A stretch of DNA of 64,000 bases, taken from contig CM049316.1 in NCBI GenBank assembly GCA_026874595.1, positions 53,639,676 to 53,703,675 of the forward strand, written 5' to 3'. The translations under genes and the position numbers were made by a program. Below, one piece after another: positions 22,894-60,900 of the stretch (the first letter of the stretch is position 1; the number at the start of each line of letters is the position of its first letter). A model generated the notes under the pieces. It had not been told where the DNA came from. It saw only the letters and a list, made by a program, of their open reading frames with translations, and ran no database searches. This DNA comes from Sipunculus nudus. Taxonomy: Eukaryota; Annelida; Sipuncula; Golfingiida; Sipunculidae.

Positions 22894-23468
22894 AGCAGTC
22901 ATTGCCCACCTGTCTGTCAAAAGAGCTAGATCTTACTTATTTGAAATTCAAACAGGTCTAGGTAAGACTATACTCTATTCCAACTTCCCCATCTGTTTTT
23001 TTTTTTGATGATTTTAATACAATGCTTTAACACTATCTTTTATTCACCTCAGCAGTATGTCAGACAATGCTGCGATTAACTAACAGAAAAATAATACTTT
23101 CCCATGTATGGATTCCATAAAATTCAGAAAGAAATATGACTAAAGAGATGTACGGTCAGTGACGACCTAAGCTGACAATCTTAAACTACATACATTTGAC
23201 AATTTGTAGTGATGATGTCACACTGGTATAGTTACATCCAACATTACATGAATAAACAGACATTGCCACTTGAATTCATGCAGCTCTTTCTAGACAGGTC
23301 ACCCTCCTGGTATTGCAAAGTAAATATATTTATTTTTATGCTTGTTTCAATCATCATAAACTGCCACAATACCTCCTTTGAAAAATAGCTTATTTGAAGT
23401 GGCAAACAAAATATATTTGAAAGATACATCACAAAAAAATAGGCAGACAGGTATTAGAACAGAGTATA

Positions 23469-25114
23469 ACAAGTGACCCATGGGTCATGACACTCAGCTG
23501 ACTATAGGAAGATATTCAGAAAAAAAAATTTATGATCTGAATGACAAATTATTTGGGGGGGGGGTTAATTATAAGTCCAATAGTTTGGACAATATGGGTA
23601 ACAGAGACCTAATTTCAGGTTTCCAAGGAGACTTTTCATGGGCCTACCTGTATGTCAAGAGAGAAGATTCTAAGTGTAATAATTACGATTTGTGCCTAGT
23701 TAACAGATGACTGCATATTTTAAGGTCTCAAAACAGAGAAAAAAATGCATAACCTTTCGAAAAAATACAGGTGGCTCCACCTGAGTCTGCAGAAACTGAT
23801 GAAACACTATATGATCAATATCCATGCAAAGAATCATGTTGATTAATGCATTAGTTATTCAGATACTTGAGCTTTATGTATCAAATTTTCAATTATTTTT
23901 GGGGGTACTTCAGAGCCCCATGGCCAAAGGATATGAGTAACAGAGACCTAATTTCAGGTTTCCATGGAGATGTTTCAAGGGCGTCCCTGTGTGTCAAGAA
24001 AGAAGATTCTAGGTCCAGTTGTTACCATTTGTGCCCTGTTAACAGAAGCATCCTTAAAATTGTCAAAATAGAGAAAAAAAATTGTACAAAAATAGAAAAA
24101 AATACAGATGACGCCACTAGTCTGCAGAAACTGATCAAACATCCAATGATCAATATCCATGCAAAGAATCATGGTGATCAATGCGTTAGTTATTCAGATA
24201 CTTGAGCTTTTGTATCAAATTTTCCATTATTCTAGAGGGTACTTTGGAGCCCCATAGCTCAAAGGATATGGGTAACAGAGACCTAATTTCAGAATTCAGA
24301 TTTTTCATGGGCCTCCCTGCATGTCAAGAACAAAGATTCTAGGTCCAGTGGTTACGATTTGTGCCCTGTTAACAGATGACTTCATCTTTAAAGATTTCAA
24401 AAATAGAAAATGCGTGAAAAAACCCCGAACATATACAGGTGGCGCCACCAGTCTGCAAAAACTGATGAAACACTCCATAATCAATATCCATGCAAACAAT
24501 CATGGTGATCACTGCATTAGTTGTTCAGATACTTCAGCTTTGGTATCAACTTTTACATTATGCTGAGGGGTACTTTGGAGCCCCAAAGCTCAAAGGATAT
24601 GGGTAACAGAGACCTAATATTCGGTTTCCATGGAGACTTTTCATGGGTCTCCCTATGTGTCAAGAATGAAGATTCTAGGTCCAGTTGTTAAGATTTGTAC
24701 CCTGTTGACAGATAACCTCATCTTTAAAGTTCTCAAAAATAGGGGAAAAAATTTTAAAAATCTGAAAAAAATAGAGGTGGCGCACCCAGTCTGCAGAAAC
24801 TGATGGAACACCTCATGATCAATATGTGTGCCAAAAATCATGACGATAAGTGTTGTGGTTAATGAGATATTGAACTTTTTGTATGAAATTTTTGACAATT
24901 CTGGGGGGTACTTTGGGGCCCAATGGCTCGAAAGATATGGGTAACAGAGACCTAATTTCTCGTTTCCAAGGAGATTTTTCATGGAACTCCCAGAGTGTCA
25001 AGTAACAAGATTCTAGGTTCAGCGGTTTACGATTTGTGCCTGGTTGAAAGACAGACGGACGACAGACAAAGAGTGATCACTATAGCTCAGATGACTTACA
25101 GTCAGCTGAGCTAA
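23469..25114 (+). mobile_element. Palindrome-headed repeat element, copy 1 (HINE-like)
   Basis: The 5' head is 'acaagtgacccatgggtcat' followed by 'ctcagctgac'; TGACCCATGGGTCA (23474-23487) is a perfect 14-bp palindrome. The core has about five units of ~335 bp, each with a GGTGGCGCCACC-like box, 'agtctgcagaaactgatg', 'ggatatgggtaacagagacc' and 'gaagattctaggtccag'. The tail is a 'gacggacgacagac' tract, then 'tagctcagatgact'/'agtcagctgagcta' (imperfect hairpin), ending CTAA at 25114. Head ctcagctgac and tail gtcagctgag are inverted. No coding capacity. Helentron-associated identity is inferred from the asymmetric inverted repeat, hairpin, CTRR-type end and tandem core. Confidence 0.68.
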
Positions 25115-25982
25115 TAAAACATGAGCTCACTTTGACCCAATTAATACAAACAGAAGGCACAAAAAACCATGATATTCATGCACAAATCATCTGTAAATAC
25201 ATGAACAGTTAAAAATAAGTTGCACTTAGTTCACCACCCAGACAGAAACATCAAAATGTGTAACCCTCATAGTGCATACTTGCGATGTATCTGAGTTTAA
25301 AGTACCTTTCAAATATTTGCATTATTGTGATATATGTTGGAATGCCAGTGAAGCAGCTAGAACAAACTGAGCTGAGCATCAATGCCCCTTCTTGCACTAT
25401 CTGAACTGTGAAAATTTTCATAAATCCATTACTAAAGACCTTCATTCTAATTTGTGTTTGATAATGGAAGGAATTCTGATATGATAAAAAATTCTGAAAA
25501 ATTAGTGAAGTCTGCTCAGAGAAAGAACACATCAACCTGCATATTCCAGATTATGCATTGAACAAAACCAAACCAGGAATTTATAAAAATCTTACACAAG
25601 GTAAATAAATAATGTCAAATGGGTCATCTGACTATATCTAAATTATCCAAACAAAAGAAAGTTATGCTACAGAGTTCTTTGTAAAACTAACTGGTGCTCA
25701 TTTATAAATGAACATGACATCACTTCAGTAAAGAAAATTTCACAAATTATTCCACTTGGAAATCCCTTATCTTAATCTATAAAGATCCCTGTTTTAAACA
25801 CTTTCACCAAATGTCCCTTACGAGCCTTACCTCTCTTAAGTACAAAATATCTATAAAAAGAGTTAAACTTTAAACTTTATTTGTTTTACATGGATTGTAT
25901 AAATAGTTATAATAACTAATACTAGGAACTCTCCATTGCTCAGGTATTGGCTTTTGGCAGTGTATAGAGGTGGAGGAAAATA
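25115..25982. other. Spacer between two repeat elements
   Basis: AT-rich sequence with no gene, repeat end or tandem repeat that I recognise. Confidence 0.4.
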
Positions 25983-28407
25983 ACAAGTGACCCATGGGTC
26001 ATGACGCTCAGCTGACTGAGAAGAGATTTGCAAAAGGAAATTTTATCATCTGAATGGTAGTATATACCCATTCAACTGAAGCATCAAACAGATTAACCAA
26101 CAGGCCAAGATTGTGTCTGTATTTATATATCTCAAAAATAGAGAAAAAATGCGTGAAAAATACAAGTGGCTCCACCAGTCTGCAGAAACTAATAAAAAGA
26201 CTTAATGGTCAATATGCATGCAAAGAATCATGGTGATCTCTTGCATGACAAGAATGAAGATTCTAGGTCCAGTTGTTATGATTTGTACCCTGTTAACAGA
26301 TAACCACATCTTTAAAGGTCTCAAAAATAGAGAAAATATTCGTAAAAATTTGAATAAATAGAGGTGGCGCACCCAGTCTGCAGAAACTGATGGAACACCT
26401 CATGATCAATATGTATGCCAAAAATCATGACCATCAGTGTTGTAGTTACTGAGATACTGCAGTTTTTGTATCAAATTTTTCATTATTCTTATGGGTATTT
26501 TGGAGCCATACAGCTTAAAGGATATGGGTAACAAAGACCTAATTTCAGTTTTTCATGGAGACTTTTCATGGGTCTCCCTGTGTGTCAAGAATGAAGATTC
26601 TAGGTCCAGTCTATACAATTTGTGCCCTGTTAACAGATGTTCATATCTTTAAAGGTCACAAAAGTAGAGAAAAAAATTCGTAAAAAAAAAAACGAACAAA
26701 TATACGTGGTGCCATCAGTCTGCAGAAACTGATGGAACAGTCCATGATCAATATCCATGCAAACAATTATGGTGATCTCTGCATTAGTTGTTCAGATACT
26801 TCAGCTTTTGTATCAACTTTTCCATTATTCCGAGCTGTACTTTGGAGTGCCATTGCTCAAAGGATATGGGTAACAGAGACCTAATTTCAGGTTTCCATGG
26901 AGACTTTTCATGGATCTCCCTGTGTGTCAAGAATGAAGATTCTAGGTCCAGTCGTTACAATTTGTACCCTGTTGACAGATAACTACATCCTTAAAGATCT
27001 CATAAATAGAGAAAAAAAATTGTAAACATTTGAAAAAATACAGGTGGTGCCACCAGTCTGCAGGAACTGATGGAACACTTCTTGATCAATATGTATGCCA
27101 AAAATCATGACCATCAGTGTTGCAGTTATTGAGATTTTGCAGTTTTTTTTATCAACTTTTCCATTATTCTGGGGGGTAATTGGGAGCCCCACAGCTCAAA
27201 GGATATGGGTAACAGAGACCTAATTTCAGGTTTCCATGGAGACTTTTCATGGATCTCCCTGTGTGTCAAGAATGAAGATTCTAGGTCCAGTCGTTACAAT
27301 TTGTACCCTGTTGACAGATAACTACATCCTTAAAGGTCTCATAAATAGAGAAAAAAAATTGTAAAAATTTGAAAAAATACAGGTGGTGCCACCAGTCTGC
27401 AGGAACTGATGGAACACTTCTTGATCAATATGTATGCCAAAAATCATGACCATCAGTGTTGCAGTTATTGAGATGTTGCAGTTTTTTTTTATCAACTTTT
27501 CCATTATTCTGGGGGGTAATTGGGAGCCCCACAGCTCAAAGGATATGGGTAACAGAGACCTAATTTCAGGTTTCCATGGAGACTTTTCATGGGTCTCCCT
27601 GTATGTCAAGAATGAAGATTCTAGGTCCAGTCTTTACGATTTGTGCCCTGTTAACAGATGTTCACATTTTTAAAGGTCTAAAAATAGAGAAAACAATTCG
27701 TAAAATATAAAAAAAATACAGGTGGCGCCACCAGTCTGCAGAAACTGATGAAACATCTCATGATCAATATGTATGCCAAAAATCATGACCATCAGTGATG
27801 CAGTTAATGAGATTTTGAAGTTTTTTTATGAAATATTTGAAAATTCTGGGGGGTACTTTGGGGCCCCATAGCTCAAAGGATTTGGGTAACGGAGACCTAA
27901 TTTCTGGTTTCCATGGAGACTTTTCATAGGTCTCTCACTGTGTCAAGAATGAAGATTCTAGGTCCCGTCTTTACGATCTGTGCCCTGTTAACAGATGTTC
28001 ACATTTTTAAAGGTCTCGAAAATAGAGAAAAAAATACGTAATAAATCGAAAAATACAGGTGGCGCCACCAGTCTGCAGGAACTGATGGAACATCTCATGA
28101 TCAATATGTATGCCAAAATCATGACCATCAGTGATGCAGTTAATGAGATATTGAAGTTTTTGTATGAAATTTTTTACTATACTGGGGGGTACTTTTGGGC
28201 CCAATAGCTCGAAGGATATGGGTATTTCTGGTTTCCAAGGAGATTTTTCATCGACCTCTCAGAATGTCAAGTAACAAGATTTTAAGTCCAGCGGTTACGA
28301 TTTGTGCCAGGTTAACGGACAGACGAACAGACAGACAGATGGACAGACGGACGACGGACCAAGAGTGATCGCTATAGCTCAGCATGACTGAAAGTCAGCT
28401 GAGCTAA
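25983..28407 (+). mobile_element. Palindrome-headed repeat element, copy 2 (HINE-like)
   Basis: Same head (palindrome at 25988-26001) and same CTAA tail (28404-28407) as the element ending at 25114. About seven core units; neighbouring units near 27041 and 27380 are ~339 bp apart and almost identical, so the array has expanded recently. The tail includes a 'gacagacagatggacagacgg' type simple tract. Confidence 0.68.
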
Positions 28408-28540
28408 AAAAGGTTACAACTGGATTGTGTCCATGATAGTTCTTGGTATAAATTGGGTTCATTTTCTAAATATGGTTTATTTTATAACATATATTTAACT
28501 TTGAAATAATTGCATGGGCATAATAATAAAAGTTAACAGA

Positions 28541-28755
28541 AGCGGATCCAGGGGAAGGGGAGGGGGGTCAAGGGGGGGTCTTGACCTCACACTCTTTTTT
28601 AACTTTTTTAACCCTTTTTAAGGTTTTCAGACCAATTTTTGCAGCCTGGACCTCCCCCCCCCCCCCCCCTTTCAGGACCTGGGGACCTATTTCATTAGTC
28701 CTCCTATTTTAGACCCCTCCCCCCCCTTTTCCAAAATCGTGGACCTGCCCCTGAT
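28541..28755. repeat. G-tract/C-tract inverted-repeat element (MITE-like)
   Basis: A left arm 'gcggatccaggggaagggg' with G runs faces a right arm with C runs ending 'ggacctgcccctgat'. The arms are imperfectly complementary and enclose ~100 bp. Long homopolymer G and C tracts make the exact borders uncertain, and these may also be error-prone in assembly. Confidence 0.5.
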
Positions 28756-29152
28756 TAATACCTAGGGGACATTACCTGTTTAAAAGAAATATGTCAGGAA
28801 TGTAATGGAGACCCCAGGTGATAAGTGCCCCCTGGTAGCAATTGACTTAAATATTCAAAAATAATTTTATGGCCAATTTTTATGCCATTTTTAAAAACTT
28901 CTCTGCATAATCATAATATCAGATTTAAGAAAACCCTGATGTACACAAATGAAAATAATAAGGACTAAACAGTATGAAATTAATTACACTTCACCTTGTT
29001 AACAAATGAAAAAAGGGCCCGAGGTGCCCCAATGTTCACCAGTGCACATTTTCCATAAGGCCACATGTGGTGGAAAAAGCAACCTGTGAACTTACAAGAT
29101 GAGCCAGCATCTGCCATCCACATTCTATTACTATATATCTCAACAAGTGACC

Positions 29153-32100
29153 CATGGGTCATGACGCTCAGCTGACTGGGAAGAGATTGGCAAAAGGAAA
29201 TTTTATCATTAGAATGGTAGTATATACCCATTCAACTGAAGCATCAAACAGATTAACCAACAGGCCAAGATTTAGTCTGTATTTATATATCTCAAAAATA
29301 GAGAAAAATGTGTAAACTTTTAAAACTAGAATACGGGTAACCGACAAGTGACTACATGTATCTGCCAAAATCGGATAGTGAGGCATGGATTGAGTGGCAA
29401 GGGGAAATAGAGTGAGGTATGTTGCATATTAGCATGGATGTCTGCAGCCTAAATGTGTATGTAGGTTGTGCCACCTACCACAAATCCAGAAAGCTGTCCA
29501 AGTTGTATACACCTGCAAAATTTTAGGCAGAAAAGTCAAACCACTACATGTATATTAGCGATTTTTGCCCATGGCAGACAAACAGACAAACACTGTGCAA
29601 AAATCTTTGCAGGTAACCCTTCCAGTTTTGTGTATGATAAAGACCTATGTGAGATCTAAACACATGCACAATTTTGGCCCAATCGGTCAAATGGTTCCTG
29701 AGATATGAGCTTGGATGTGTGCAGCGTTAACTAGAATGTAGGTGGCGCCACCTGTCATAAAATCAAGAAAGCTGTCCACGATGTATAAACCTGCAAAATT
29801 TTAGGCAGTTGTGTCGAACCACTACAGAGAAATGAGTGATTTTAGGCCACGGCAGACTAACAGACAGACGCTGTGCAAACATTGTTACAGGTGGCGCCAC
29901 CATTTTTTGTGTATGTTACAGAGCTATCAAAGGGCTACATTTGTATAAATTTTATTTCCTGATCGGTCAAACGGTTCCCAAGATATAAGCTTGGATGTCA
30001 TCAGCGTGAACGTGAACGTATGTGGCGCCACCTGTCATAAAATCAAGAAAGCTATCCTGGATGTATACGCATGACGAATTTCAGGTGAATTAGTCAATTC
30101 ACTGCAGAGATATGAGTGATTTTAACCCAAGGCAGATGAACAGATGGACACTGTGCAAACATGGTTACAGGTGGTGCCACCATTTTTTGTGTATGTTATA
30201 AAGCAATCCAAGGGCTACATTTGTATCAATTTTATTTCCTGATCAGTCAAACGGTTCCCGAGATATGAGGGTTTATGAGTGGAAACAGACCCACAAATGG
30301 ACACTGGATAGAGAGGAAAGGTCAGAGGTCAACGCAAATTGGTTAGGCACCAGTTCACATGTGACCCGATAATAGGTGTAAGTTTGGGAAAAATCGGTCC
30401 ATTAGTCTTCGAGGAGCTCTCTGGAAACGAACGCCACCGCGGTGGAGGAACCCGGTAAAAAACATAGTATCCGCAAAACACTTAATGGTCAATATCCATG
30501 CAAAAAATCATGGTGATCTCTGCATTAGTTGTTCAGATACTTCAGTTTTTGTATCAAATTGTCCATTATTCTGAGGGATACTTCGGAGTCCTATAGCTTG
30601 AAGGATATGGGTAACAGAGACCTAATTTCAAGTTTCCACAGGCACCTTTCATGGGCCTCCTTGCATGACAAGAATGAAGATTCTAGGTCCAGTTGTTGCG
30701 ATTTGTACCCTGTTGACAGATAACCACATCTTTAAAGGTCTCAAAAAAAAGAAAAAAATTCGTAAAAATTTGAAAAAAAATAGAGGTGGCACACCCAGTC
30801 TGCAGAAACTGATGGAACAGCTCATGATCAATATGTATGCCGAAAATCATGACCATCAGTGTTGTAGTTATTGAAATACTGCAGTTTTTGTATCAAATTT
30901 TCCATTATTCTGGGGGGGGGGGGGGTATTTTGGACCCATACAGCTTAAAGAATATGGGTAACAGAGACCTTATTTCAAGTTTTCATGGGTCTCCCTGTGT
31001 GTCAAGAATGAAGATTCTTGGTCCAGTTTTTATGATTTGTGCCCTGTTAACAGATGTTCATATCTTTAAAGGTCTCAAAAATACAGAAAAATTTCGTAAA
31101 AAAAACTGAACAAATACAGGTGGTGCCACCAGTCTGCAGAGACTTATGAAACACTCCATGATCAATATCCATGCAAACAATTATGGTTATCTCTGCATTA
31201 GTTGTTCAGATACTTTAGCTTTTGTATCAAATTTTCCATTATTCTGAGCTGTACTTTGGAGTGCCATAGCACAAAGGATATGGGTAACAGAGACCAAATT
31301 TCAGGTTTCCATGGAGACTTATCATGGGTCTCCCTGTGTGTCAAGAACGAAGATTCTAGGTCCAGTCGTTACGATTTGTACCCTGTTGACAGATAACTAC
31401 ATCTTTAAAGGTCTCAAAAATGGAGAAAACAATTCGTGAACATTGAAAAATACAGGTGGCGCAAACTGATGAAACATCTCATGATCAATATGTATGTTGA
31501 AAATCATGACCATCAGTGATGTAGTTAATGAGATATTGAAGTTTTTGTATGAAATTTTTGACTATTCTAGGGGGTAATTTTGGGCCCCATAGCTCGAAGG
31601 ATATGGGTAACAGAGACCTAATTTCTGGTTTCCATGGAGACTTTTCATAGGTCTCTCAGTGTGTCGAAAATGAAGATTCTAGGTCCAGTCGTGACGATTT
31701 GTGCCACGCTAACAGATGACAGCATCCTCAAAGGTCTCAAAAATAGAGGAAAAAATCGTATAAAATCAAACAGTACAGGTGGCGCCACCAGTCTGCAGGA
31801 ACTGATCAAACATCTCATGATCAATATGTATGCCAAAAATGAAGACCATCAGTGATGTAGTTATTGAAATATTGAAGTTTTTGTATGAAATTTTTTACTA
31901 TTCTGGGGGGTACTTTGGGGCCCCATAGCTCGAAGGATATGGGTAACAGAGACCTAATTTCTGGTTTCCAAGGAGATTTTTCATGGACCACTCAGTGTGT
32001 CAAGAATTAAGATTCTAAGTCCAGTCTTTATGATTTGTGCCTTGTTAACAGATGTTCACATTTTTAAAGGTCTCAAAAATAGAGAAAAAAATTCGTAAAA

Positions 32101-32462
32101 TCAAAAAATACAGGTGGCGCCACCAGTCTGCATGAAGTGATGTAACATCTCATGATCAATATGTATGCCAAAAATCATGACCATCAGTCAAGTAGTTAAT
32201 GAGATATTGAAGTTTTTGTATGAAATTTTTGACTTTTCTGGGGGGTACTTTGGGGCCACATAGCTCGAAGGATATGGGTAACAGAGACCTAATTTCTGGT
32301 TTCCAAGGAGATTTTTTATGGACCTCTCAGAATCCCAAGTTACAAGGTTCTAGGTCCAGTGGTTACAATTTGTGCCTGGTTAACGGACGGACAGACGGAC
32401 AGACGGACAACGGACAAAGAGTGATCGCTATAGCTCAGATGACTTTCAGTCAGCTGAGCTAA
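29153..32462 (+). mobile_element. Palindrome-headed repeat element, copy 3, with nested insertion
   Basis: The head palindrome lies at 29158-29171 and the CTAA tail at 32459-32462. The core is interrupted at ~29326-30475 by a different repeat and then resumes with six or so ~335-bp units. The first ~170 bp after the head is nearly identical to that of the copy starting at 25983 (the shared 'cattcaactgaagcatcaaa' block), implying close descent. Confidence 0.66.
29326..30475 (+). mobile_element. GGTGGCGCCACC-family element nested in copy 3
   Basis: Starts 'ctagaatacgggtaaccgac' and holds ~150-bp units, each with a GGTGGCGCCACC box (exact at 29741 and 29890), 'aaatcaagaaagctgtcc' and 'gatatgag' blocks. 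Its start matches the element at 38512, where it forms a perfect hairpin (GTAGTCG ACAAG CGACTAC). It ends near a second palindrome, CCACCGCGGTGG (30434-30445). No coding sequence. Confidence 0.6.
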
Positions 32463-33923: not shown

Positions 33924-36900
33924 CTGGAAAAGATCAAAATTATTGTCATACATATATGAAAATCAGTATCAAAAGTGATGTAACCACCCTGCACACATGA
34001 ACAGGGCTTGCTACCTGGGTTGTATAAATCCCTTTCATTAAGATATCTTAATAAATATTGTTTTAAAATAATTTCTTTTATGTTTGAAAAGAAACAAGAT
34101 TGTGACCAAACAATGTAATTATAATAAAAGGCAAAAGTACTATAACAAAACATGGGTGTAAACCTTGGCTATAAGAGGTTTTATTCTAGTTCAAAATTTT
34201 ATGGCATCACTAAAACACGATGGTGAACTAATTTAGATTCACATTAATCACATTCTGGCCAGCCAAACTGTTAAATGTTTCATTAAGGTTATACAAGAAG
34301 TTCTAAACATTTCAGCTTGTAAATAAACCAACAAGTATGAAACACATTGGACAATTATATGATGATATATATGTAGCTTACTTTTCTTCAAAACGAACGG
34401 TGAGACCTCTTCATTCTCATAATCCGAGTCATCTGATGATGAGTCAATGTAGTTTTCACAGTCTACCTGCACGAAGTGTGGCTGAAAGCAGACATTATAG
34501 TGATTACTGGCACACTCAAACAAGTTATATGATCATCATGTGATAACTGGCACACTCATACAAGTTATGTTATCACCATGTGATTATTTGCACACTCAAA
34601 CTATTTATATGATCATCATGTCATTACTGGCACACTCAAGATCACATGATATAGATCTTGTATATATACATGTTCTATGACATGTGTCATTTAGCAGTAT
34701 ATTCACAACAAAAGATAAAAAGAAAACAAATGACCACTGGCTCAGGACAATCAGCAGTGTAGTTTGGCCAATGAGTGAGAAGGCTACTTTGTAACCACAG
34801 AAGCCCGGTTATTAGATACTGGAAAGGATGGGCAAAGGGAATAAGACAGCTGTCTTGTGTGACTGATAAATCTACCAATCATCAAAACAATCCATGTATC
34901 ATTAACTGAGAAACTGGCTTTATTGTATGAATTTTTACTAAAAACTGGGAGTTCAAAATCAGGTTTGTGTAGAAACTGTAGAAACTACTGACTGGAAATA
35001 CAACCAACTGTAAAACTAGAAATTACTAACGGGAAATACAACCAACTGTTAAACTGTATCTTGATGCTTCTTTAGAGATTTCTCTTTGAACTCTGGAATC
35101 ATAACATTTTTTTTTATTTTTTTTTTTTTAATAGTCTGATATCACCGACGATGTCAGTCTCATCCGACTTTGCCTTCCTGGTCTTTCGGGGCCTGTTCAT
35201 TCTTGTAGCTTTTCTCGGCTCCCTTGGGAGCATACAACCCGAGCTGCCATATCAGGCGCAAGAGGGTTATTCGTTCTACATTTGCCAACTCCCATGACCA
35301 GTACCCATTCACTCCTGGGTCGAGAGAGCGCACCCTTGTGGTAAAGACTTTGCCTAAGAGTCTTAGCGTAGACGGCGGTCAGAACGGGACGCGAACCCAA
35401 GACCCTGCGGTCACAAGTCCAGCGCCCTATCCATTACGCCACCACGCTCCACATTACTGACAATGATCTACTAATCTTAATAAAGGACCTTGCAGTGGAC
35501 ACTGACCTTGACCTTCTGTTTGACAAGCCGTGGCCATCTACTTCGCTCCTCCTTCTGCAGGGCTACTAAAACTTCATTTGCTCGAACTTCAACACAACTT
35601 TTCTCAGGATCCACAAGTTCATACAGTTGTAGTTGGAATGTGTATTCTTTGTAATCTACAGTCGCTCTACAAAAGCACTTGAGTTGATCAGTTTCATTAT
35701 GAAACAAATATGTCAGAAACTGGATTTTCTCTAATATAAAACACAGATGAAAACGTGTACCTCCAAGATATACAAGCAAGTGACCAATGGGTCATGACAC
35801 TCAACAACTGGTGTTACATCTTAATAAGTTACATTTGAATACATTTTGACAGCCAAGCACACAGTTGTCAGACACTGGATTGGAAGGGCAAGGGGGAGGA
35901 GAAATAGCTATGGGTAATGATTATATAAACCTACTGTCAAACCATAAACTTTACAGATTGTTCACAAAGCCAAGTTTGCAATGATGGATAGGTTTCCAAT
36001 TTGGGTGTTTGTTTATTATAGACCTTAAAAGAAAAGGCTACATATATAGACAATGTGAATTTTATGATCCAATTCAAAACATACAGTTGCACATCATTAG
36101 CCTCCTATAATCATAAAAGGTTTCCAAGATCAACAAGCAAAGCAAATTTGACTGCAATTCTTCCATTAACTGAGATCTTAAGAGTTGTTTTTATGAAATT
36201 TTCTGAAAATGGACAAACCATTTTGAAATTTCCAAACTGTTAGGGACATTTCTGATGAAGATTTTGGCAGATGTTGTTGATCCTTTGCATGATGACAAAG
36301 ATAATGGTGTAAATGAAGCATATTAACAGAAGTACAGAATACCCTGCCTCATTAGAATACACACCCTGTCTTTGCCCAGAATGTTTACTCACTGGTGCAC
36401 ACATATTACTTCTGCTAAAGTCCGTAACAGAAAAGGCACCAAAATTAAGCTCAAAACTGTCACCAACTGCTACCTTTACAATAAAAATTGTCCAAAATCT
36501 TAGATTAACATGTATTCATGTACAACAAACAAATACTCATAATGCTGTATTCGTTTTACAAATCATTCAGCACAATGATAAATGATACAATGTCTAGCGA
36601 TGTGCCCGTTGCCGGCACATGACTGGAAAGAGTCAATGCCCAAATGGAAATTATTTTTTAGCCATGAAAAAATATCTTGCATGAAGGTATATCTTGTGGT
36701 GTTTTACCTGTATTACTAATCGTGACCCCTATCTGATATTTCTAAAGTGTATGTGTGCCAAGCTGAAAGACATCCAGTGGGGCTTAAAATGTATATTTAA
36801 TAGGAGGTATTCATTCCCAATGTGCCTTATTAAGTAATGATATTTTATTAAATTTGCTACTGAAAGTAGTGAATGTAGCCCCAAGAGTATAACAGACTTA

Positions 36901-45900: not shown

Positions 45901-48900
45901 TGCATAGATCTTGAATACCATTTAGCTTTGTCTTTTCTGCTGGCTTTACAAAAGGCGTCAAACTCAGATCTATAATAACTATAGGTTTCCATGGTGATTT
46001 CATCATCATTATGAACACATACCAAAGTAGATGGACTCATTCCTTCATTCAAGTTTTAATAATAAAATTTGATATCTGTTCATATTAAAAAAAAAAAACA
46101 GAGTCACAGTGACATATTTCCTGGAATGACAAGATAACTTTCTCATAACCAACTGTGTGCCAAACTGCCAATGGTAGTATACAGTTTTATCATTAGCTTG
46201 AAAGCTTATGAAAAGTGAATGCACACTTTAGCTCAATTTACTTTTTACTTGATAAGCAATTAATCATACAAAATATATTAGAGTTTCAATGAAGTAATGG
46301 TAGTTTTATCTTGATATTTTTAAAATGTTAACTCATAGTGTTAAAACTGTTCTTACCTACGATGGTCCTTGAACAGAGTCTGCAGGACCTGGGCACAGGT
46401 TTGTTGAATCTGTTAACAGTACATTATTAAGTAACAGTAAGGTCAAATATAACCATCAGGAAAGTCAATAGGAAGAAGTATCTTGTTTCATGAAGTAATT
46501 TTGTAAATTTGTTAATGACTTTATCTTAATATAATACGCATATTCTTTTGAGATTTTTACAGTAAATATTGTTCTGCAATGCAGTCATGAAAACAACCTA
46601 GCTCCTTTATCATAAGAGCTGTCCATGTGATACAACAGGTCATGCGTCAAACAGCCAGTCACTTGATTAGATGAAATGATACTGACAAATATTGCAAAAC
46701 AGTATCTTATATACCTGAAACAAACCCAATGGTTTTTCATATCAAAGAAATTTATCATGTTATAGTTATGATGAATTAAACCTTTTTTAAGAGTATTCTC
46801 TATAGATACATTTAGAGCAAAGTCTTAAATTTATCATTAAATATTTAATACAGCTTACTCCGTTTTATATACTTGAACAATAAATGTAATTGTACAAGTA
46901 CCTCTGTGACCTTGGTCTCTGCCATGACCTTGAGGAGTGTTTTTATTGCATCCACATGATACAGATTATCACAGACTCTGAAACATTTTATCAGACAAAT
47001 CAATTTATCCACTGCCAACTGTATCTATAACCTATATAGTAATCCATCAGGCCTTATAAGTGTCAAAGTGAAATGTCAAGGACCAAAATTATACCAAATC
47101 ATAATTTATGTTACCTATTAACTAGATATTTCTTGGCACCGCAGGTGCCATAGTATTCCCAGACAATTAATCCCCCCCCCCTTTAAGAATAGGCCCCCCA
47201 TCTTCAGCAACAATTAATATCAGACCACACTAATAGAAAAGGTCATTCTCATAGAAAAGGTCATGATCCAAATTTCAATATACATCATCCCCTAACCCAT
47301 GTCTATGTATATGCAAGAAATCTGTCCATTAGTTTTTGACTTATAATGCTCACAATACTGTTAAGTGGCAATGATGGGGTATTAAACGGCACAAAACAAG
47401 TAAAAGAATAACAGGTGGCGCCACCTGTTTCCGGAACATGACAATACTTTCCAAGATCTTCGAACATGTTGATTTTTGGACCAATGCATGCATCCCTTAT
47501 TGAGATATTAATGATTTTGTGTAATTTTCACCATATATGGCAATTTTTCAAGGTCAAGGCCACTCTAATAGGAAAGGTCATGACCCCAATTTATATATAC
47601 ATCATCCCATAACCCATGTCTATGTATATGCATAATATGAAAGAAATCTGTCCATTAGTTTTTGACTTATAATGCTCACAGGTTATAAATGTACTGTTAA
47701 GTGGCAATGATGGGGTATTAAACGGCACGAAAACAAGTAAAAGAATAACAGGTGGCGCCACCTGTTTCTGGTACATGACATTACTATCCAAGATCTTTGG
47801 TCAAGTTGATTTTTGGACCAATGCATGCATCCCTTATTGAGAAATTAATGATTTTGTGTGATTTTCACCATATATGGCAATATTCAAGGTCAAGGCTACT
47901 CACTGGAAAGGTCATGACCCCTATTCAAATAAACATTATCCTATAACCCATATCCATGTATATGCATAATATGAAAGAAATTTGTCCATTAGTTTTTGAC
48001 TTATAATGCTCACAGTACTGATAAATGGCAATGATGGGGTATTAAACGGCACAAAACAAGTAAAAGAATAACAGGTGGCGCCACCTGTTTCCGGTACATG
48101 ACAAAACTTTCCAAGATCTTCGAACATGTTGATTTTTGGACCAATGCATGCATCCCTTATTGAGATATTAATGATTTTGTGTAATTTTCACCATATATGG
48201 CAATATTCAAGGTCAAGGCCACTCTAATAGGAAAGGTCATGACCCCAATTTATATATACATCATCCCATAATCCATGTCTATGTATATGCATAATATGAA
48301 AGAAATCTGTCCATTAGTTTTTGACTTATAATGCTCACAGTACTGTCAAGTAGCAATTTTGGGGATATTAAACGGCATGAAAACAAGTAAAGAATAATAG
48401 GTGGCGCCCCCAGTTTCTGGAACATGACAACCCTATCCATGATCTTCGATCAACTTGATTTTGGGATCAATCCATGCAAGTTTTCTTGAGATATTTAAGA
48501 ATTTGTGTGATTTTCCCCAAAACTGAACCTATTCAAGGTCAAGGTCACTCTCCTAGTTGAGGTCATGACCTCATTTTAAATAGGCGTTGTCCTCTCACCC
48601 ATATCTATACATATACCAAGTTTGGTAAAGATCCGTGAAATATTTTTTGAGTTATTGTGTCCAAAAGAAATCTCTGCGGTGGCGGCGGCTGCGGCGGCGC
48701 GACTGTGCCTAAACCATAGTATCTCCAGACTATGTCTGGCGATACAATTAAAGCTAATTTATGTCTGATGCCCACTGCTGTGTTTTGTGATGTATTTAAT
48801 GCTGTCTGTTTGAATACTAAGTTATGTTATAATGCCCACTGCAGTGTTTTGTGGTGTATTTAATGCTGTCTGTCTGAATACTAAGTTATATTAAAATGCC

Positions 48901-51900
48901 CACTGCAGTGTTTTGTGGTGTATTTAATGCTGTCTGTCTGAATACTAAGTTATGTTATAATGTCTGCTGCTGTGTTTTGTGGTGTATTTAATGCTGTCTG
49001 TCTGAATACTAAGTTATGTTATAATGTCTGCTGCTGTGTTTTGTGGTGTATTTAATGCTGTCTGTCTGAATACTAAGTTATATTAAAATGCCTGCTGCTG
49101 TGTTTTGTGGTGTATTTAATGCTGTCTGTCTGAATACTAAGTTATTTCTTATGCTCGGTGCTGTGTTTTGTGGTGTATTGTCTGTATAGCATAAATACCT
49201 TGGGTTTGTTGTCAGCTTCTGTATTGTATACACTAGATATTCCTGCAGTTTCTCATCTTCACTCTGTCAATAAAAGTAAGTCAAACATGTCACAAAGTAG
49301 CTCACAAACAGTAAATCTGTTCCTCAATATATAATGCAATTAAGTAAAAAAATACAATTAACAAATTTTGCAATATGAATGAATTGAGTAAGATTATGTC
49401 TCCACAGTATAAAATATTACCTGATGACAGCATGATCCTAAGTATGTAAGGGTATAATAATGCAAAGGTCAACACTGGCATTTTCACATGAATCATGCAT
49501 TAATGTATATAAATAATGGGGATATGTTTATGGTCAAAACCTGTTTCAGTGATCTATTGTATATATATCAAGTAACGGTATGTCATGGTAAACAAGTGAA
49601 AACAACAAATGAATTATAGGATTTATGCTATCAAGTTTTGTTTTTTTTTAAATAAAAATTGAACAGATAAAGGAAGCTTTTAAGCAATTGCAGTATGAAA
49701 ACATGCTCTGATTTCTTATCAGAGTAAAGAAAAATGTTTTTTGTCATTCTAACAAGAAAAGTAACTTAATCTAACCAGAATACTGTGGTTGCCTTTATAT
49801 TGGCGGGGCTGAATTTTCGTGGTTTTTATATTTTTAAAAGTTTCACGGGGTTCCTTTTTCGCGCTCTATCATTGGTCTAGTAGTATATTTCATTATCAAA
49901 AATAGTTTCATTTACCGGTGATTTCACTATTATCTAGGTCTCCTATTTCTCTGTCCGGATATCGCATGTTCGAACATTCACAGACGGCTGAGCCGACGCC
50001 TGCGGGAAGCATTGACCCCGCTGGCTGTAATTAGTTCAGGGCCGAGGCTCATTAAAAACAACTCAAATGTTATTACAGTGTGTCGAGAAACCAACCTGTA
50101 ACTACAAAACGGTATATTAAGTTTGTTTAGGAAAACTGTCTTGATAAGGGTATCTTACTCCTGTTAATTAAAAGTCGAGTCGTAATCACCTGCTCAACCA
50201 ACAAGGGACGCCTATAGGTAGCCCCCTTGTTTCAGGATCAAAGGCATGGATGTGCCCAGAATAATTTGAATGCCGTTTATATATGTTGCTAATTACTTCC
50301 ATATAGGTGGAAGAAGGAACCGTATTCAGTTTCTCACAGTTAAAATCTGAAGCAAAACATAATATTCCACTGTTTTAAGGCACTTTGGCCCCAAAATGAA
50401 CTGCAACCTTTCAAATATATTCAAAACTCACGTCATCACTAGCCAATCATACATCGTTTGGGGCGTCATGATTTCACAGTCTTTTATACAGTTACAGGGT
50501 GGCGCAACCCTAGCAGCTATGTTCACTACTTTAGTGGCAAATTTATTCATTAACATGACTAAATACGGCACAATGTGAAAGAGTACCTTCTACTCAATAT
50601 TCATTTTTAAGCGGCACTGGATGTCATCTAACTTGGCACACATACATGTAATTTTTAAATATTACTGCCCAGCGGGCATTGACACTTTCCAGTCATGTGC
50701 CGGGGGAAAGGAATAACTGCCGGGCGCGTCCGCCGGAGTTAGCACGCACCTGCAAAGGGTCCCGGTTTTTTGCATCAAAGCCAACCGATATTATTTAAAA
50801 TGGGCCCAGCATTCTCCCTGAATCATTTATCGTATATGCACCAGGCTCGATGGACAATCACTACGTAGCTGAAGATAAATATCAACTGTCGCAAACTATC
50901 GGCAGCTTTGAAATTAATGATTATGGTCTGGTATATGTGCATTCAAAACTTTCATTTTCGCGGTCAGGGAGCGACCGCGAATATTGCGAATTTGAAACCA
51001 CCGCAAATAAGAAGACAACCACAGTATCAGCAGTAGCTGACAAGAGCCCTCAGCCTAAAAAAATGATTGGTGGTAACAGTAACATCTGTACTCACATTGA
51101 TGTATATCTGTACAGATTACACAAGTAACAAGTTAGTCTTAGATAGAACAGAGGGCAAAATGTGAAATGGAGCTAAATGATCTATTAGTTCTTCAAATGA
51201 AGGTCACTTGCTTTGTGGTAAAAGTAGTATATATCATGGAAATCTAGATACACTATGACCTTGAATTGTATGTCAAGGTCACTCATTTTCAAACTGGATT
51301 TTGAACTGGATTTTTTTAGTATAAATCTGTCCTGATGAAGTGAAGCAACTATGTTTCTTTTTAAGGTTCTCATGCAAAAATGACCATGTAAACGATAAAC
51401 ACTTGTAAAAATGAAGATACTGTGGATGGCGCAAACAGACTGCTAGAGCAGTTACAGATCATCAATAACCCCCACCATATTTCATAACAATCCATCAAGT
51501 GGTTCCAGAGAAAAAAGCAGACAAGTTTTTTCTATAAATAGATCTGTGACCTTGAAAAATATGTCAAGGTCACCCATGTTTGAACTAGAAAAGATTTTGT
51601 TGGTATACATCTGCCCTGAACAAATGAAGCTGCTTTGTTAAAGTCTTTTTGAGATATCCTGCTCTCAATGTAAATCTAAATTAATGCCTAGACACCTAGT
51701 AGATGCCGACGGATGGACAGCATGGGTGATGACAATAGCCAACCAGCCTATATAGGCTGATGGCTACAAAAGGTGGAGCTTATTTTTAGTTAAACTGAAC
51801 TTGAACATGAAGTTTGTAGTATCACAAATTATAATTTTACCTTCCTCGAGCCTTTGGCTGTGACAGTGTGCTACAAGTATGGTAATAATACAAGGGTGCT

Positions 51901-54900
51901 TAAATTAGGAATAATGACAGTAAACTATAGGATAAAACCAAGGATCAACAGGCATACCAACATTTCTATAATGAACTACCAACAGAGTTGGCAATTATAT
52001 TGCAATTATATATTTAAGATTATCCAAAACTGCCCCTTCAGCACCATCTGGTGCACATTCTCTTAACCAAGGCACAGTTTTGGTGATGTTAAGAACTGAA
52101 ATTCTTGCCTGAAGAAATGATACATGGAATACAAAGGCAGAGACTAATATTTATACTGATAAGAGCACAGTAAGAAAAAGATCATTGTGTGAACTTGTGT
52201 GACAAGTACATGTACATAGCAAGTACTACAAATTTTGAACCTGAGTACAAGTACCAATTACACAACCATGTATTTGACCCAAACCTGATGCAGTGATATC
52301 AGACAACTAAAACATTCTCATTTATCTGAAAGGTCTAACACCTCTTCTCCATACACAGAGGCACTGCCACATTTAGGTCAACAAGTGCAGATTCAACACC
52401 ATATTGTTTGCAGATAGCTATAGAGAAATCCCAGGTCTTTACTTTACTTGTGAAATCCTGAACTTCCACAGAGTTTAATGATAAGCCCACATTTTACATT
52501 TGCATTGACTAATTTGCACTGACTAGTTTATAAAGGTGTCTATCTAAATTTGAAAGATTTGTTAAGGAAAGAATGAGCCATGAGAATCCTAAAACAGAAA
52601 ATCAAGTGGTTACCATGTACAGTCTTCCAACAAGAGCTTGTATTGCTCCCTCATTGCACACCATGTCAGAGTTCCTGCAGAAATAAGATGCAAATAAAAT
52701 AAAAATAAAATAAAAGTGTAATACCATTCAATGTTAACATTCTAAAATGTAGAACTTCTCCTATTTCACACAGCCTCTCATCTAATTCTTACACTTTGTG
52801 ATTGGAAAATCAGCTACAGTGTTGTCTTTTTATTATTTTTTCTTCTAGGTAATATTTGTTAATCATTTATTTATTCACAAGCTTAGTATATTTAATCAAT
52901 TTTTTAAAATAAATTACATGTCTTAAGGCTAATCACTAATAAAACAACACTTACCTTGAATTGTTGAGGGTTAAATAGATGATACAATAAGCCAGAGCCT
53001 CTAGGACATTGACGGAGGAGGTCAGTTTAACAGCCTGACAGACGGCCTGAACCCCACCAACATCCCTTATTGCATCTCTGAAACTAAACAGCACCACAAA
53101 TCAGTCACTACCGCCACCATCTTTGATCATATGGTGGATACAGATGACTCATATTTTACCACAAATTCCAGGATACTATGGAATATTTGACAGACATATG
53201 GATCAAAAGGGATAAAGCCTAATTCAAAGTTATATCACAGCCAAATGACACTGAAATTTTATTCACCATGAAAAACGTTTAAAATTTTAGTTTTAATCTT
53301 TTGACAATGTGTAGTTTGAGATGCATTATATTTTATGACCACACTTACCCAGCATGCTTTGCGATGATGTTCTGGATACTCTCAGCCAATGTCTGCTGCT
53401 CCTCAGGATCCTGTTCAAACAAATTAAACAACAAAATATGCCAGCAGTCAAAGCAAGAGTTTAACCACGGAATTACTGGTACAAACACTGACAGAAATTA
53501 ATTAAGGATCACAGTGTTCACATTTAAGCTGGAAGATACATAACCAAACAATGACTCCACACATGTTCTGATGTTTTCTATTTTATTTCATCGATTTCTG
53601 ATGAGGGCAGCTCTAAATTTAAAGACATTGTATTCTTAGGTTAGTAGACACATTTCTGAGATTCTGTAGAACACAAGACTCTAAACCAGAGAAACAAATG
53701 GTCTTTTTTCACACTGTAATTGTAAGACTACTTTTGTATTACTACAGCAATAGGACAGCTTTTCATATGAAAGCATCTGGAACTGGCATTGCAAACATTT
53801 TGTACTGAACATACTTTCAACTGGCCCAACAAACAGGTCTGCATATTTTATTTTTTAATGGAAATCTGAAAATGGTGGCAACAGAGTGACTAACATCTTT
53901 AACACTGTCGCTTTATCATACCAAAAGTAGTGCATTCCATTTCTTTTTACTTTTAACAGAAATATCCTGGCACTGGTTGATATAGTACTAAATGTATTTC
54001 TGAATACCAGGGCATCTACATAAGTCTATTTAATGTACTCACTGTACTTCTGACTAGAGTGGCACATAAACTTGGTATCTGTACATATTCCTGTGCTCCC
54101 CTGCAAACTGCCTCCATATCTACTGGTATGAGATTCTGAAGCAGAAACAAACTCATTAATATTAATGATCCTTAGCTCTGATGTCCTGTCATATGGGATG
54201 CAGGTTTAATGTATGCATACTGATGGGTTTAATTATATTTTAATTTGTTAAATTATTTAAAAGAAAATTGATTTCTTTAACAAGTGGCCCATGGGCCATG
54301 ATGCTCAGCTAAATTTGACTGGGTGCTCATTTCCTTTATTAATGATATATATTGTCTGTATGTGAATAGCCTAGGGCTAATGTAACTATGTCAATAAGTG
54401 GACAGAAATTAAAATTTTAGGATTCATAGGAGACCTACCCAGGACCCCCCTGGATTTCACAATAAAGGGTTCTAAAGAAAATGGATACAATTTGTACCAT
54501 GTCTGTCTGGGTGCTCAAAATCATGTTTCTGGTCCATAGCTCACAAAATATAGGTCACCATGACTGAATTTCAGGTTTACAAGGAGAATTGCCAAGGACT
54601 TCCCTGAATGTCATGTTAAAAGAGTCTAGGGCTAATGGATACAATTTTTGCCCTGTCTGACTGCTCAAAATAATGCTTCTGGCCAGTAGCTTGCAGAATA
54701 TAGGTCACCATGACCTACATTTAAATTTCAAAGGAGATTTGCCCAGGACCTAGGCCTAGTGCATACAACTTGTACCCATCTGACGTTAAAGGTACTCAGA
54801 TCATGTTTTGGCCTGTCACATGCAGGTTTCCAGTGGGATTTGCCAAGATCTCCCTGGATGTTGTGTTGGAAGATTTTAGGGCTTAATGATACAATTTATG

Positions 54901-57900
54901 CCCTATCTGAATGTATTTGACATGTTTTATAAGAATTAAGTTACCTAATTTCAAGATTCGTAGAAGACTTGCCAAAGACCTCCATAGACTTTTCAATACA
55001 AGGTACAAAGGAAAATAGATACAATTTGTACCTTGTCTGTCTGAATGCTCTAATTCATACTTTTTTTTTGGCTCATAGCCTGTGAACGATGACATAATTT
55101 CTGGTTTCCAAAGACATTTGCCTAGAAACTCCCAGGATATTGTGTGAGAAGATTCTAGGCCCAACAGATACAATTTGTGCCCATATGACATTCAGGGTGT
55201 TCATATGACATCTTTTCCCTGTAGGTCACAGAATATAGGTCACAGTGACCTAATTTCAGATTTCCAAGGACATTTGCCGAGGACCTCTTTAAATGTCTTG
55301 TTAGGGGATTCTAGGCCTAAAAGATACAATTTGTGCCCCGTCTGACTGACTGGAAGCTCAAAATCATGTTTTTGGTCCGTAGGTCACAAAATATAGGTCA
55401 CCATGACCTAATTTCAGGTTTCCAACGAGTTTTGCCTAGGACCTCCCTGGATGTTCAGTTAGAAGTTTCTAGGTCTTACGGTTATGAATTGTGCCATGTT
55501 AATGGCCGGATGGCTGGACAACCAGATAGATTCTGGACAAAGGGTGATGGCTATAGCACAGATGACTCACAGTCGGCCGAGCTAAAATTGTTACATTACC
55601 ACAACATGGCATCTTCTGGATTACTCCTCGAATTACTACTTAATAAAGGTTTTGTATATTGGAGCAGAAACAGCATTACAATTGAGGAAATACAGTTCAA
55701 ACAAAAACAATTACTGCATAAAACTTAGTAGATGGGGGGGGGGCTGTTATGAGAATAACTGTATGCCTTTAACAGCAGATGATCTCCCCCTGTGACCAAT
55801 TACAAATCAGGTACCTGGCATAGCAGACTTCCAGTGACCAGAAGTGGGCTGCCTGCAGCGTAACCATGCATGTGAGTACAAAAAAGCTTCATAGAAAGAA
55901 TTTAATACCTAGCCTAATTTTTTAGCATTTACCCTTTCAAATTTCAGATTTGGAAAGATAAAATACTCACATGTACATGCTGTAAAAATTAAATCAACAG
56001 TACTTACAGTAAAAACGTGCCTTGGTTAATACTGACCAGTACAAAGTCCATTAATAGGTCAGGCATGACCAGCTGAAACCAGTTAATGTGATATATCTAT
56101 GTCAAACTTGTGTGAAGTGTCATACAGTCTGATGGTATACTGACCTGTACATAGTCCTCTGTAGGTCAGGCATGACCATCTGCCACCAGTTCATTTGATA
56201 TATCTATGTCAAACTTGTGTGAAGTGTCATACAGTCTGATGGTACACTGACCTGTATATAGTCCTCTGTAGGTCGGGCGTGACCAGCTGCCATCAGTTCA
56301 TGTGATATATCTATGTCAAACTTGTGTGAAGTGTCATACAGTCTGATAGTATAGTGACCCGACAAAGTCCTCTGTAGGTTGGGCGTGACCAGCCGCCACC
56401 TGTTCATGTGATATATCTATGTAAAACTTGTGTGAAGTGTCATACAGTCTGATGGTATACTGACCTGTACATAGTCCTCTGTAGGTCAGGCGTGACCAGC
56501 TGCCACCAGTTCATGTGATATATCTAAATCAAACTTGTGTGAAGTGTCATACAGTCTGATGGTATACTGACCTGTACATAGTCCTTTGTAGGTCGAGCAT
56601 GACCAGCTGCCACCAGTTCATGTGATATATCTATGTCAAACTTGTGTGAGGTGTCGTACAGTCTGATGGTATACTGACCTGTACATAGTCCTCTGTAGGT
56701 TGAGCATGACCAGCTGCCACCAGTTCATGTGATATATCTATGTCAAACTTGTGTGAGGTGTCGTACAGTCTGATGGTATACTGACCTGTACATAGTCCTC
56801 TGTAGGTCGAGCATGACCAGCTGCCACCAGTTCATGTGATATATCTATGTCAAACTTGTGTGAAGTGTCATACAGTCTGATGGTATACTGACCTGTACAT
56901 AGTCCTCTGTAGGTCGAGCATGACCAGCTGCCACCAGTTCATGTGATATATCTATATCTAACTTGTGTGAAGTGTCAAACAGTCTGATGGTAAACTGACC
57001 TGTACATAGTCCTTTGCGGTTGGGCATGACCAGCTGCCACCAGTTCATGTGATATATCTATGTCAAACTTGTGCGAGGCGTCGTACAGTCTGATGGTATA
57101 CTGACCTGTACATAGTCCTCTGTAGGTCGGGCATGACCAGCTGCCACCAGTTCATGTGATATATCTAAATCAAACTTGTGTGAAGTGTCATACAGTCTGA
57201 TGGTAGACTGACCTGTACATAGTCCTTTGTAGGTCGGGCATGACCAGCTGCCACAAGTTCATGTGATATATCTATGTCAAACTTGTGTGAGGCGTCGTAC
57301 AGTCTGATGGTATACTGACCTGTACATAGTCCTCTGTAGGTTGGGCGTGACCAGCTGCCACCAGTTCATGTGATATATCTATGTCAAACTTGTGTGAGGC
57401 GTCGTACAGTCTGATGGTATACTGACCTGTACATAGTCCTCTGTAGGTCGGGCATGACCAGCTGCCACCAGTTCATGTGATATATCTATGTCAAACTTGT
57501 GTGAGGTGTCATACAGTCTGATGGTACACTGACCTGTACATAGTCCTCTGTAGGTCGAGCATGACCAGCTGCCACCAGTTCATGTGATATATCTATGTCA
57601 AACTTGTGTGAGGTGTCGTACAGTCTGATGGTATACTGACCTGTACATAGTCCTCTGTAGGTCGAGCATGACCAGCTGCCACCAGTTCATGTGATATATC
57701 TATGTCAAACTTGTGTGAGGTGTCGTACAGTCTGATGGTATACTTGTGTGAGGTGTCGTACAGTCTGATGGTATACTGACCTGTACATAGTCCTTTGTAG
57801 GTCGGGCATGACCAGCTGCCACCAGTTCATGTGATATATCTATGTCAAACTTGTGTGAAGTGTCGTACAGTCTGATGGTATACTGACCTGTACATAGTCC

Positions 57901-60900
57901 TCTGTAGGTTGAGCATGACCAGCTGCCACCAGTTCATGTGATATATCTATGTCAAACTTGTGTGAGGTGTCGTACAGTCTGATGGTATACTGACCTGTAC
58001 ATAGTCCTCTGTAGGTCGAGCATGACCAGCTGCCACCAGTTCATGTGATATATCTAAATCAAACTTGTGTGAAGTGTCATACAGTCTGATGGTATACTGA
58101 CCTGTACATAGTCCTTTGTAGGTTGGGCATGACCAGCTGCCACCAGTTCATGTGATATATCTATGTCAAACTTGTGTGAAGTGTCGTACAGTCTGATGGT
58201 ATACTGACCTGTACATAGTCCTCTGTAGGTTGAGCATGACCAGCTGCCACCAGTTCATGTGATATATCTATGTCAAACTTGTGTGAGGTGTCGTACAGTC
58301 TGATGGTATAATGACCTGTATATAGTCCTCTGTAGGTCGAGCATGACCAGCTGCCACCAGTTCATGTGATATATCTATGTCAAACTTGTGTGAGGTGTCG
58401 TACAGTCTGATGGTATACTGACCTGTACATAGTCCTCTGTAGGTCGAGCATGACCAGCTGCCACCAGTTCATGTGATATATCTATGTCAAACTTGTGTGA
58501 GGTGTCATACAGTCTGATAGTATACTGACCTGTACATAGTCCTCTGTAGGTCGGGCATGACCAGCTGCCACCAGTTCATGTGATATATCTATGTCAAACT
58601 TGTGTGAGGTGTCATACAGTCTGATGGTATACTGACCTGTACATAGTCCTCTGTAGGTCCGGCATGACCAGCTGCCACCAGATCATGTGATATATCTATG
58701 TCAAACTTGTGTGAGGTGTCATACAGTCTGATGGTATACTGACCTGTACATAGTCCTTTGTAGGTCGAGCATGACCAGCTGCCACCAGTTCATGTGATAT
58801 ATCTATGTCAAACTTGTGTGAAGTGTCATACAGTCTGATGGTACACTGACCTGTACATAGTCCTCTGTAGGTCGAGCATGACCAGCTGCCACCAGTTCAT
58901 GTGATATATCTATGTCAAACTTGTGTGAGGTGTCATACAGTCTGATAGTATACTGACCTGTACATAGTCCTCTGTAGGTTGGGCGTGACCAGCTGCCACC
59001 AGTTCATGTGATATATCTATGTCAAACTTGTGTGAAGTGTCGTACAGTCTGATGGTATACTGACCTGTACATAGTCCTCTGTAGGTCGAGCATGACCAGC
59101 TGCCACCAGTTCATGTGATATATCTATGTCAAACTTGTGTGAGGTGTCATACAGTCTGATGGTACACTGACCTGTACATAGTCCTCTGTAGGTCGGGCAT
59201 GACCAGCTGCCACCAGTTCATGTGATATATCTATGTCAAACTTGTGTGAAGTGTCATACAGTCTGATGGTATACTGACCTGTACATAGTCCTCTGTAGGT
59301 CGAGCATGACCAGCTGCCACCAGTTCATGTGATTTATCTATGTCAAACTTGTGTGAGGTGTTGTACAGTCTGTGGGTATACTGACCTGTACATAGTCCTC
59401 TGTAGGTCGGGCATGACCAGCTGCCACCAGATCATTTGATATATCTATGCCAATTTGTGTGAGGTGTCGACAGTCTGATGGTATACTGACCTGTACATAG
59501 TCCTCTGTAGGTCGGGCATGACCAGCTGCCACCAGTTCATGTGATATATCTATGTCAAACTTGTGTGAGGTGTCGTACAGTCTGATGGTACACTGACCTG
59601 TACATAGTCCTCTGTAGGTCGGGCATGACCAGCTGCCACCAGTTCATGTGATATATCTAAATCAAACTTGTGTGAAGTGTCATACAGTCTGATGGTATAC
59701 TGACCTGTACATAGTCCTTTGTAGGTCGGGCATGATCAGCTGCCACCAGTTCATGTGATATATCTATGTCAAACTTGTGTGAGGTGTCGTACAGTCTGAT
59801 GGTATACTGACCTGTACATAGTCCTCTGTAGGTTGGGCGTGACCAGCTGCCACCAGTTCATGTGATATATCTAAATCAAACTTGTGTGAAGTGTCATACA
59901 GTCTGATGGTATACTGACCTGTACATAGTCCTCTGTAGGTCGGGCATGACCAGCTGCCACCAGTTCATGTGATATATCTAAATCAAACTTGTGTGAAGTG
60001 TCATACAGTCTGATGGTATACTGACCTGTACATAGTCCTTTGTAGGTCGGGCATGACCAGCTGCCACCAGTTCATGTGATATATCTATGTCAAACTTGTG
60101 TGAGGTGTCGTACAGTCTGATGGTATACTGACCTGTACATAGTCCTCTGTAGGTCGGGCATGACCAGCTGCCACAAGTTCATGTGATATATCTAAATCAA
60201 ACTTGTGTGAGGTGTCGTACAGTCTGATGGTATACTGACCTGTACATAGTCCTCTGTAGGTTGAGCATGACCAGCTGCCACCAGTTCATGTGATATATCT
60301 ATGTCAAACTTGTGTGAGGTGTCATACAGTCTGATGGTATACTGACCTGTACATAGTCCTCTGTAGGTCGGGCATGACCAGCTGCCACCAGTTCATGTGA
60401 TATATCTAAATCAAACTTGTGTGAAGTGTCATACAGTCTGATGGTATACTGACCTGTACATAGTCCTCTGTAGGTCGAGCATGACCAGCTGCCACCAGTT
60501 CATGTGATATATCTAAATCAAACTTGTGTGAAGTGTCATACAGTCTGATGGTATACTGACCTGTACATAGTCCTCTGTAGGTCGGGCATGACCAGCTGCC
60601 ACCAGTTCATGTGATATATCTATGTCAAACTTGTGTGAGGTGTCGACAGTCTGATGGTATACTGACCTGTACATAGTCCTCTGTAGGTTGGGCGTGACCA
60701 GCTGCCACCAGTTCATGTGATATATCTATGTCAAACTTGTGTGAGGTGTTGTACAGTCTGATGGTATACTGAGGTGACGCTCGGTCCTCAGAAGCTTCTT
60801 TACACATCACCTAAAATTAATATCAAACTCAAAAGTTTATATCAATATTCATAAGGGGTCATACCTGAGAAAGATTACTCCAGGGTGAGACTCGTGGACC

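Follow-up and report, generated by a model that had tools for sequence, protein, structure and literature searches.

Array structure at a Tudor-domain exon

The window analysed here is a 64,000-nucleotide stretch of the Sipunculus nudus genome (contig CM049316.1, forward-strand positions 53,639,676 to 53,703,675), and all positions below are those of the window. Its minus strand carries a gene with Tudor domains, the exons of which are lettered from A, and a long tandem array begins within exon D (60810-60667, minus strand), the product of which is VMCKEASEDRASPQYTIRLYNTSHKFDIDISHELVAAGHAQPTEDYVQ. Tandem Repeats Finder (TRF) places repeats of 107-bp period in two blocks, 56029-57744 (16.0 copies) and 57742-60772 (28.4 copies), and wrap-around alignment to a cyclic 107-bp unit splits this region into 44 units: unit 0, which is the exon's own copy, and units 1-43, which are intronic and lie head-to-tail. 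Each unit corresponds to the last 35 codons of exon D plus the donor GT. Since the unit begins 38 nt within exon D, the acceptor of that exon is absent from the copies. The original prediction, made from the letters alone, had proposed this anatomy, with about 43 copies and no copied acceptor, and the alignment agrees on both counts. The array straddles the exon-intron boundary of exon D, as placed from sequence and reading frame. In a search of the 1.43-Gb assembly (153 contigs; very common words are skipped by the search), the single candidate stretch that was scored was this locus, with 44 matches. We conclude that a long minisatellite of the type known from amphioxus as a mirage lies at the boundary of exon D.

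The 3' end of exon D is followed by GTCAGT, and the joints between units recreate CAG/GTCAGT. The exact nonamer CAGGTCAGT is found at 41 of the 44 donor sites, exon D's own donor counted, while the remaining three read CTGGTCAGT, CAGGTCATT and CGGGTCACT; GT is present in all 44. Elsewhere in the window the nonamer occurs once, and shuffles of the window contain it 0.52 times on average and three times at most. The array thus offers the dozens of equivalent donors that had been predicted, and the joint is indeed rebuilt in nearly every unit, subject to one correction: the far end of the array, units 40-43, is degenerate.

Acceptors were ranked by a crude ad hoc score that could be applied to seven of the nine named acceptors of the gene (those of exons A and I excluded). 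These seven range from 0.5 to 4.9, the lowest value being that of exon D. Among 333 AG sites in the array, 45 score above zero, the best at 1.1. The array may hold weak internal acceptors; pseudo-exons arising from them are not supported.

Variation among the units

The 45 variant events in units 1-43 are spread over codon positions 1, 2 and 3 as 15, 16 and 14. By class, 10 are synonymous, 33 are missense and 2 create stops, where the observed transition bias predicts 11.2, 31.6 and 2.2; the dN/dS-like ratio comes to 1.16. Because the codon-position and change-class counts are both near expectation, the array shows no sign of coding constraint. A role of the units as coding exons can be ruled out, as codon-position bias is absent and read-through runs into stops.

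Units 1-39 differ from one another by 4.4% on average, and from units 40-43 by 8.6%. Of the 30 private mutations, 14 fall in units 40-43 (p 0.0015 by permutation, units 27 and 28 excluded). Homogenisation is lost at this far edge only; the opposite edge of the array is the exon. Across units 1-43, private mutations become more numerous away from the exon (rho 0.38, p 0.016); across units 1-39 they do not (p 0.45). A gradient with the youngest units near the exon is therefore ruled out, the far edge accounting for the whole rise. The exon copy carries no private mutation, and 16 of 39 units depart from the consensus at least as much as it does.

Each of the unit's three CpG sites is replaced by TG or CA in part of the copies. 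The Asn codon of exon D is itself a CpG-type change (Asp is kept in 42 of the 44 units), so part of the mosaic of shared variants may reflect recurrent mutation. For pairs of non-CpG columns, all four combinations occur in 13 of 28, adjacent columns 42 and 43 being counted separately.

Predicted consequences for splicing

Reading beyond the donor of exon D gives 13 codons and then a TGA in unit 1, which ends 42 nt past the exon. Use of the next three donors would yield exons of 250, 357 and 464 nt, in which this common stop lies 64, 171 and 278 nt before the junction, and for later donors the distance is greater still. As all downstream donors meet one stop, 43 of the 44 donors would give a truncated mRNA that is probably prone to decay. 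The frame shift of 2 nt per unit envisaged earlier becomes irrelevant, because the TGA in unit 1 gives every downstream donor the same truncated product.

When donors are of similar strength, exon definition is reported to favour the donor nearest the acceptor across the exon, with shorter exons preferred, and intron definition to have the opposite preference (PMC9225289). Given this published preference and a predicted downstream intron of 6.5 kb, we expect the exon-proximal donor to be the one in use. It shares near-identical sequence with its competitors over about 105 nt upstream and over kilobases downstream, and is distinguished from them by its distance from the acceptor and by the order of transcription. 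With only these two properties to tell the donors apart, the locus is a natural setting in which to test how proximity governs the choice of donor.

Proposed origin and expansion of the array

The interior of exon D reads CACC-TCAGTATACC and the intron after the last unit reads G-TCAGTATTAACC, with TCAGTAT in both. We propose that a tandem duplication between these two copies of TCAGTAT, one in the exon interior and the other at intron positions +2 to +8, could have carried the last part of exon D, donor included, into the intron. Since the coding TCAGTAT would supply intron positions +2 to +8, every new joint would be the full donor. Unequal exchange, gene conversion or both may then have expanded and mixed the array to its 43 intronic copies, which vary neutrally, like non-coding DNA. 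The splicing machinery most likely recognises exon D as the 144 nt between its acceptor and the closest donor, and removes the array along with the intron. We consider it highly probable that the locus is such a mirage-type minisatellite, expanded neutrally and spliced out from the exon-proximal donor. The array itself is most likely inert.

Several observations speak against this interpretation. TCAGTAT is found at 10 further places on the minus strand of the window, and because the heptamer recurs so often the proposed seed is only suggestive. The preference for the proximal donor is modest, the upstream donor being chosen in 60% of events with near-equal strengths (PMC9225289), and the intron upstream of exon D measures merely about 465 bp. 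Some AG sites in the array score at or above the acceptor of exon D (0.5). In a lag test over 20 lags, adjacent units were no closer in sequence than remote ones (lags 8 and 15 reached uncorrected p values of 0.02 and 0.04), and a run test for block duplications found none, so that higher-order repeats were rejected by the two tests together. With no likeness between neighbours and no block copies, the array is well mixed. Plain local slippage predicts otherwise, and a long mixing history or recurrent CpG mutation is needed to explain the pattern.

Comparison with described boundary repeats

Exon-boundary repeats with copied splice signals are a kind already described. In the amphioxus mirages an exon-intron boundary is duplicated in the manner of a minisatellite; many units carry splice signals, the length is unstable and edge units escape homogenisation; Adh3 and the globin genes BflGb6 and BflGb9 are the examples given (PMC3087553), with troponin C and PGBD5 added later (PMC3902484). 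Regular splicing is reported in both accounts to be undisturbed (PMC3087553, PMC3902484). In BflGb9 it is the 3' boundary of exon 2 that is duplicated, over 157 bp. The present array resembles the mirages as a boundary tandem repeat with splice signals in its units and concerted evolution from which edge units are excluded. It differs in scale, with 43 intronic copies in a genome of 1.43 Gb as against 6 and 3 in the two BflGb6 haplotypes, which are those covered by the comparison of copy number.

The minisatellite of human IFI6 (also G1P3 or 6-16) was reportedly described by Turri in 1995 as having multiple splice donor sites. Both its array and its unit are shorter than those of the Tudor-gene array. 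As in our case, tandem units supply the donors. Downstream repeat units of IFI6 serve as donors in transcripts (PMC4526556). Internal tandem repeats at exon-intron boundaries have also been described in human segmental duplications, with a mean of 30-bp units in four copies, and some are linked to novel introns; they share with our locus the expansion of a minisatellite over exon-intron boundaries (PMC2812944). These precedents, together with the mirages, displace the original prediction's statement that no case was described. Intron gain of the type proposed by Rogers, through tandem duplication of AGGT segments (PMC4974935), likewise copies splice-site sequence by tandem duplication. In contrast to that model, the copies at our locus seem to lie inside a pre-existing intron with its own downstream acceptor, although the array may hold weak acceptors. 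An array of exon end plus donor with a comparable copy number was not found in the open-licence papers searched. The locus extends boundary minisatellites to 43 copies.

Alternative explanations

The downstream donors might instead act as poison donors that lead to a premature stop and decay, with the length of the array tuning the amount of productive mRNA. Decay usually affects transcripts with a stop more than 50-55 nt upstream of a junction, and the stop distances given above all lie beyond that rule. The identity of the nonamer at 41 of 44 donors and the precedent of IFI6 point the same way, as does the lower variability of the donor (2 of 9 columns, compared with 40 of 107 across the unit), columns that are too few to mean much. 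Against this stands the report that amphioxus mirages have no effect on regular splicing, and we judge such a function unlikely. A brake tuned by copy number, with one productive donor facing 43 near-identical donors that lead to one shared premature stop, appears to us distinctly unlikely; if it existed, expansion or contraction of the array would set the level of a germline Tudor protein.

A gene-conversion reservoir that repairs or diversifies exon D had also been suggested. The data allow for exchange between the array and the exon. Every difference of the exon from the consensus is also seen somewhere in the array (that at column 22 in just one unit), the exon copy has none of the 30 private mutations, and the four-combination column pairs are in keeping with exchange. 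However, as the units descend from the exon, sharing is expected by descent too, and the changes at all three CpG sites indicate that recurrent mutation explains part of the mosaic. The units moreover contain missense and stop variants, so that conversion could harm as well as mend. A reservoir function is unsupported, and we regard it as very improbable. It is more doubtful still that the array yields small RNAs or double-stranded RNA against its own gene. The gene does have Tudor domains and a CS-like piece, a combination reminiscent of proteins of the PIWI-interacting RNA (piRNA) pathway such as TDRD12, but every unit points the same way. Assemblies often get the size of long arrays wrong; that the copy number here is an assembly artefact is nevertheless scarcely credible, as the 44 units comprise 38 distinct sequences, one edge of the array is degenerate, indels occur in it, and it is embedded in a 79-Mb contig.

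Host gene

The features of the array and of the exons around it are collected in Table 1.

Table 1. Features of the exon D array and its host gene (positions in the window)
Feature	Position	Strand	Basis
Exon D, source of the unit: 48 codons (VMCKEASED...EDYVQ), C-terminal portion of an extended Tudor domain, starting and ending in phase 0	60667..60810	-	frame and homology
Unit 0, exon D's copy of the 107-bp unit, including G of the donor	60666..60772	-	wrap-around alignment
Units 1-43, the intronic copies, in head-to-tail order	56036..60665	-	TRF, alignment, genome search
33-bp internal partial duplication in one unit, giving a 140-bp unit	57742..57774 (about)	-	TRF, alignment
Four degenerate far-edge units (40-43)	56036..56463	-	private-mutation count
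Presumed remnant of the ancestral intron start (GTCAGTATTAACC), with TCAGTAT in common with the exon interior	56024..56036	-	interpretation
Predicted intron between exons D and E, 6531 bp long (array, 4630 bp)	54136..60666	-	inferred
Exon E, predicted to come next: 31 codons (NLIPVDMEAV...LVRST), starting and ending in phase 0; the acceptor reads TTTCTGCTTCAG and the donor GTGAGT	54043..54135	-	
Second donor-anchored array in the host gene, 64-bp units, 6.7 copies (TRF)	48754..49198	-	TRF, shuffles

When exons B, C and D are joined, Pfam TUDOR matches with an expectation value (E) of 1.4e-16, the match being located in exon B. Extended Tudor structures of TDRKH match the same product (E 1.5e-16, residues 5-132 of 139), and this match extends into exon D. 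The gene structure was assembled by hand, with exon joins read by eye. The predicted exon E, which sets the putative far boundary of the intron, was picked by eye from 15 candidate acceptors. Phases are compatible at the joins from A to G and from H to I, and incompatible from G to H and from I to J, so exons must be missing at these two places.

Exon G has a weak armadillo-repeat match (0.048, below the cut-off). A CS-like piece at about 35.5 kb, downstream in the gene, matches a p23-family chain (E 4.7e-6), the Pfam CS match being below the cut-off (0.0059). Upstream pieces resemble a helicase weakly (best E 0.051) and have no Pfam match. Outside the window, on its upstream side, another partial Tudor domain (stretch L009, 5285-5957, minus strand; 2.9e-5 from two joined pieces) is probably part of the host gene. 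Tudor domains, a helicase and a CS domain are what define a TDRD12-like gene. On its sequence features the host gene may be of this kind, an assignment that we do not adopt. A protein search for orthologues with exons A-D returned 412 candidates, none at or below 1e-5, and an exact 32-mer search of viral and prokaryotic contigs gave zero matches.

Other tandem repeats

The host gene carries a second donor-anchored array, with 64-bp units that each begin GTATT. Its degenerate first unit starts where the intron downstream of exon H (49199-49263) opens with GTATT, or close to that point, and in 0 of 1000 shuffles was the match of this unit to the consensus equalled. The donor context is weaker than in the 107-bp array, as A precedes GT. 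The presence of this second array suggests that donor-anchored arrays may recur in the genome.

As a background sample, 20 randomly drawn 10-kb stretches of contig C11 were found to contain 97 arrays totalling 25,129 bases, or about 12.6% (small overlaps kept); a single array, in stretch L026, accounts for 9,289 of these bases. Two arrays in the sample combine a period of 50 or more with 10 or more copies. In this genome, then, long arrays are common, and that some should sit on exon boundaries is no great surprise.

Three further repeats were observed in the window. A 40-bp array at 34500-34639 (3.5 copies) stops some 20 nt short of a predicted minus-strand acceptor, the exon running from about 34481. 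A 39-bp array at 22604-22899, 99% identical, lies within a plus-strand open reading frame of 133 amino acids. Several tandem blocks with periods of 336-339 bp occupy 23592-32384, and periods of 333-339 bp recur in the random stretches of contig C11.

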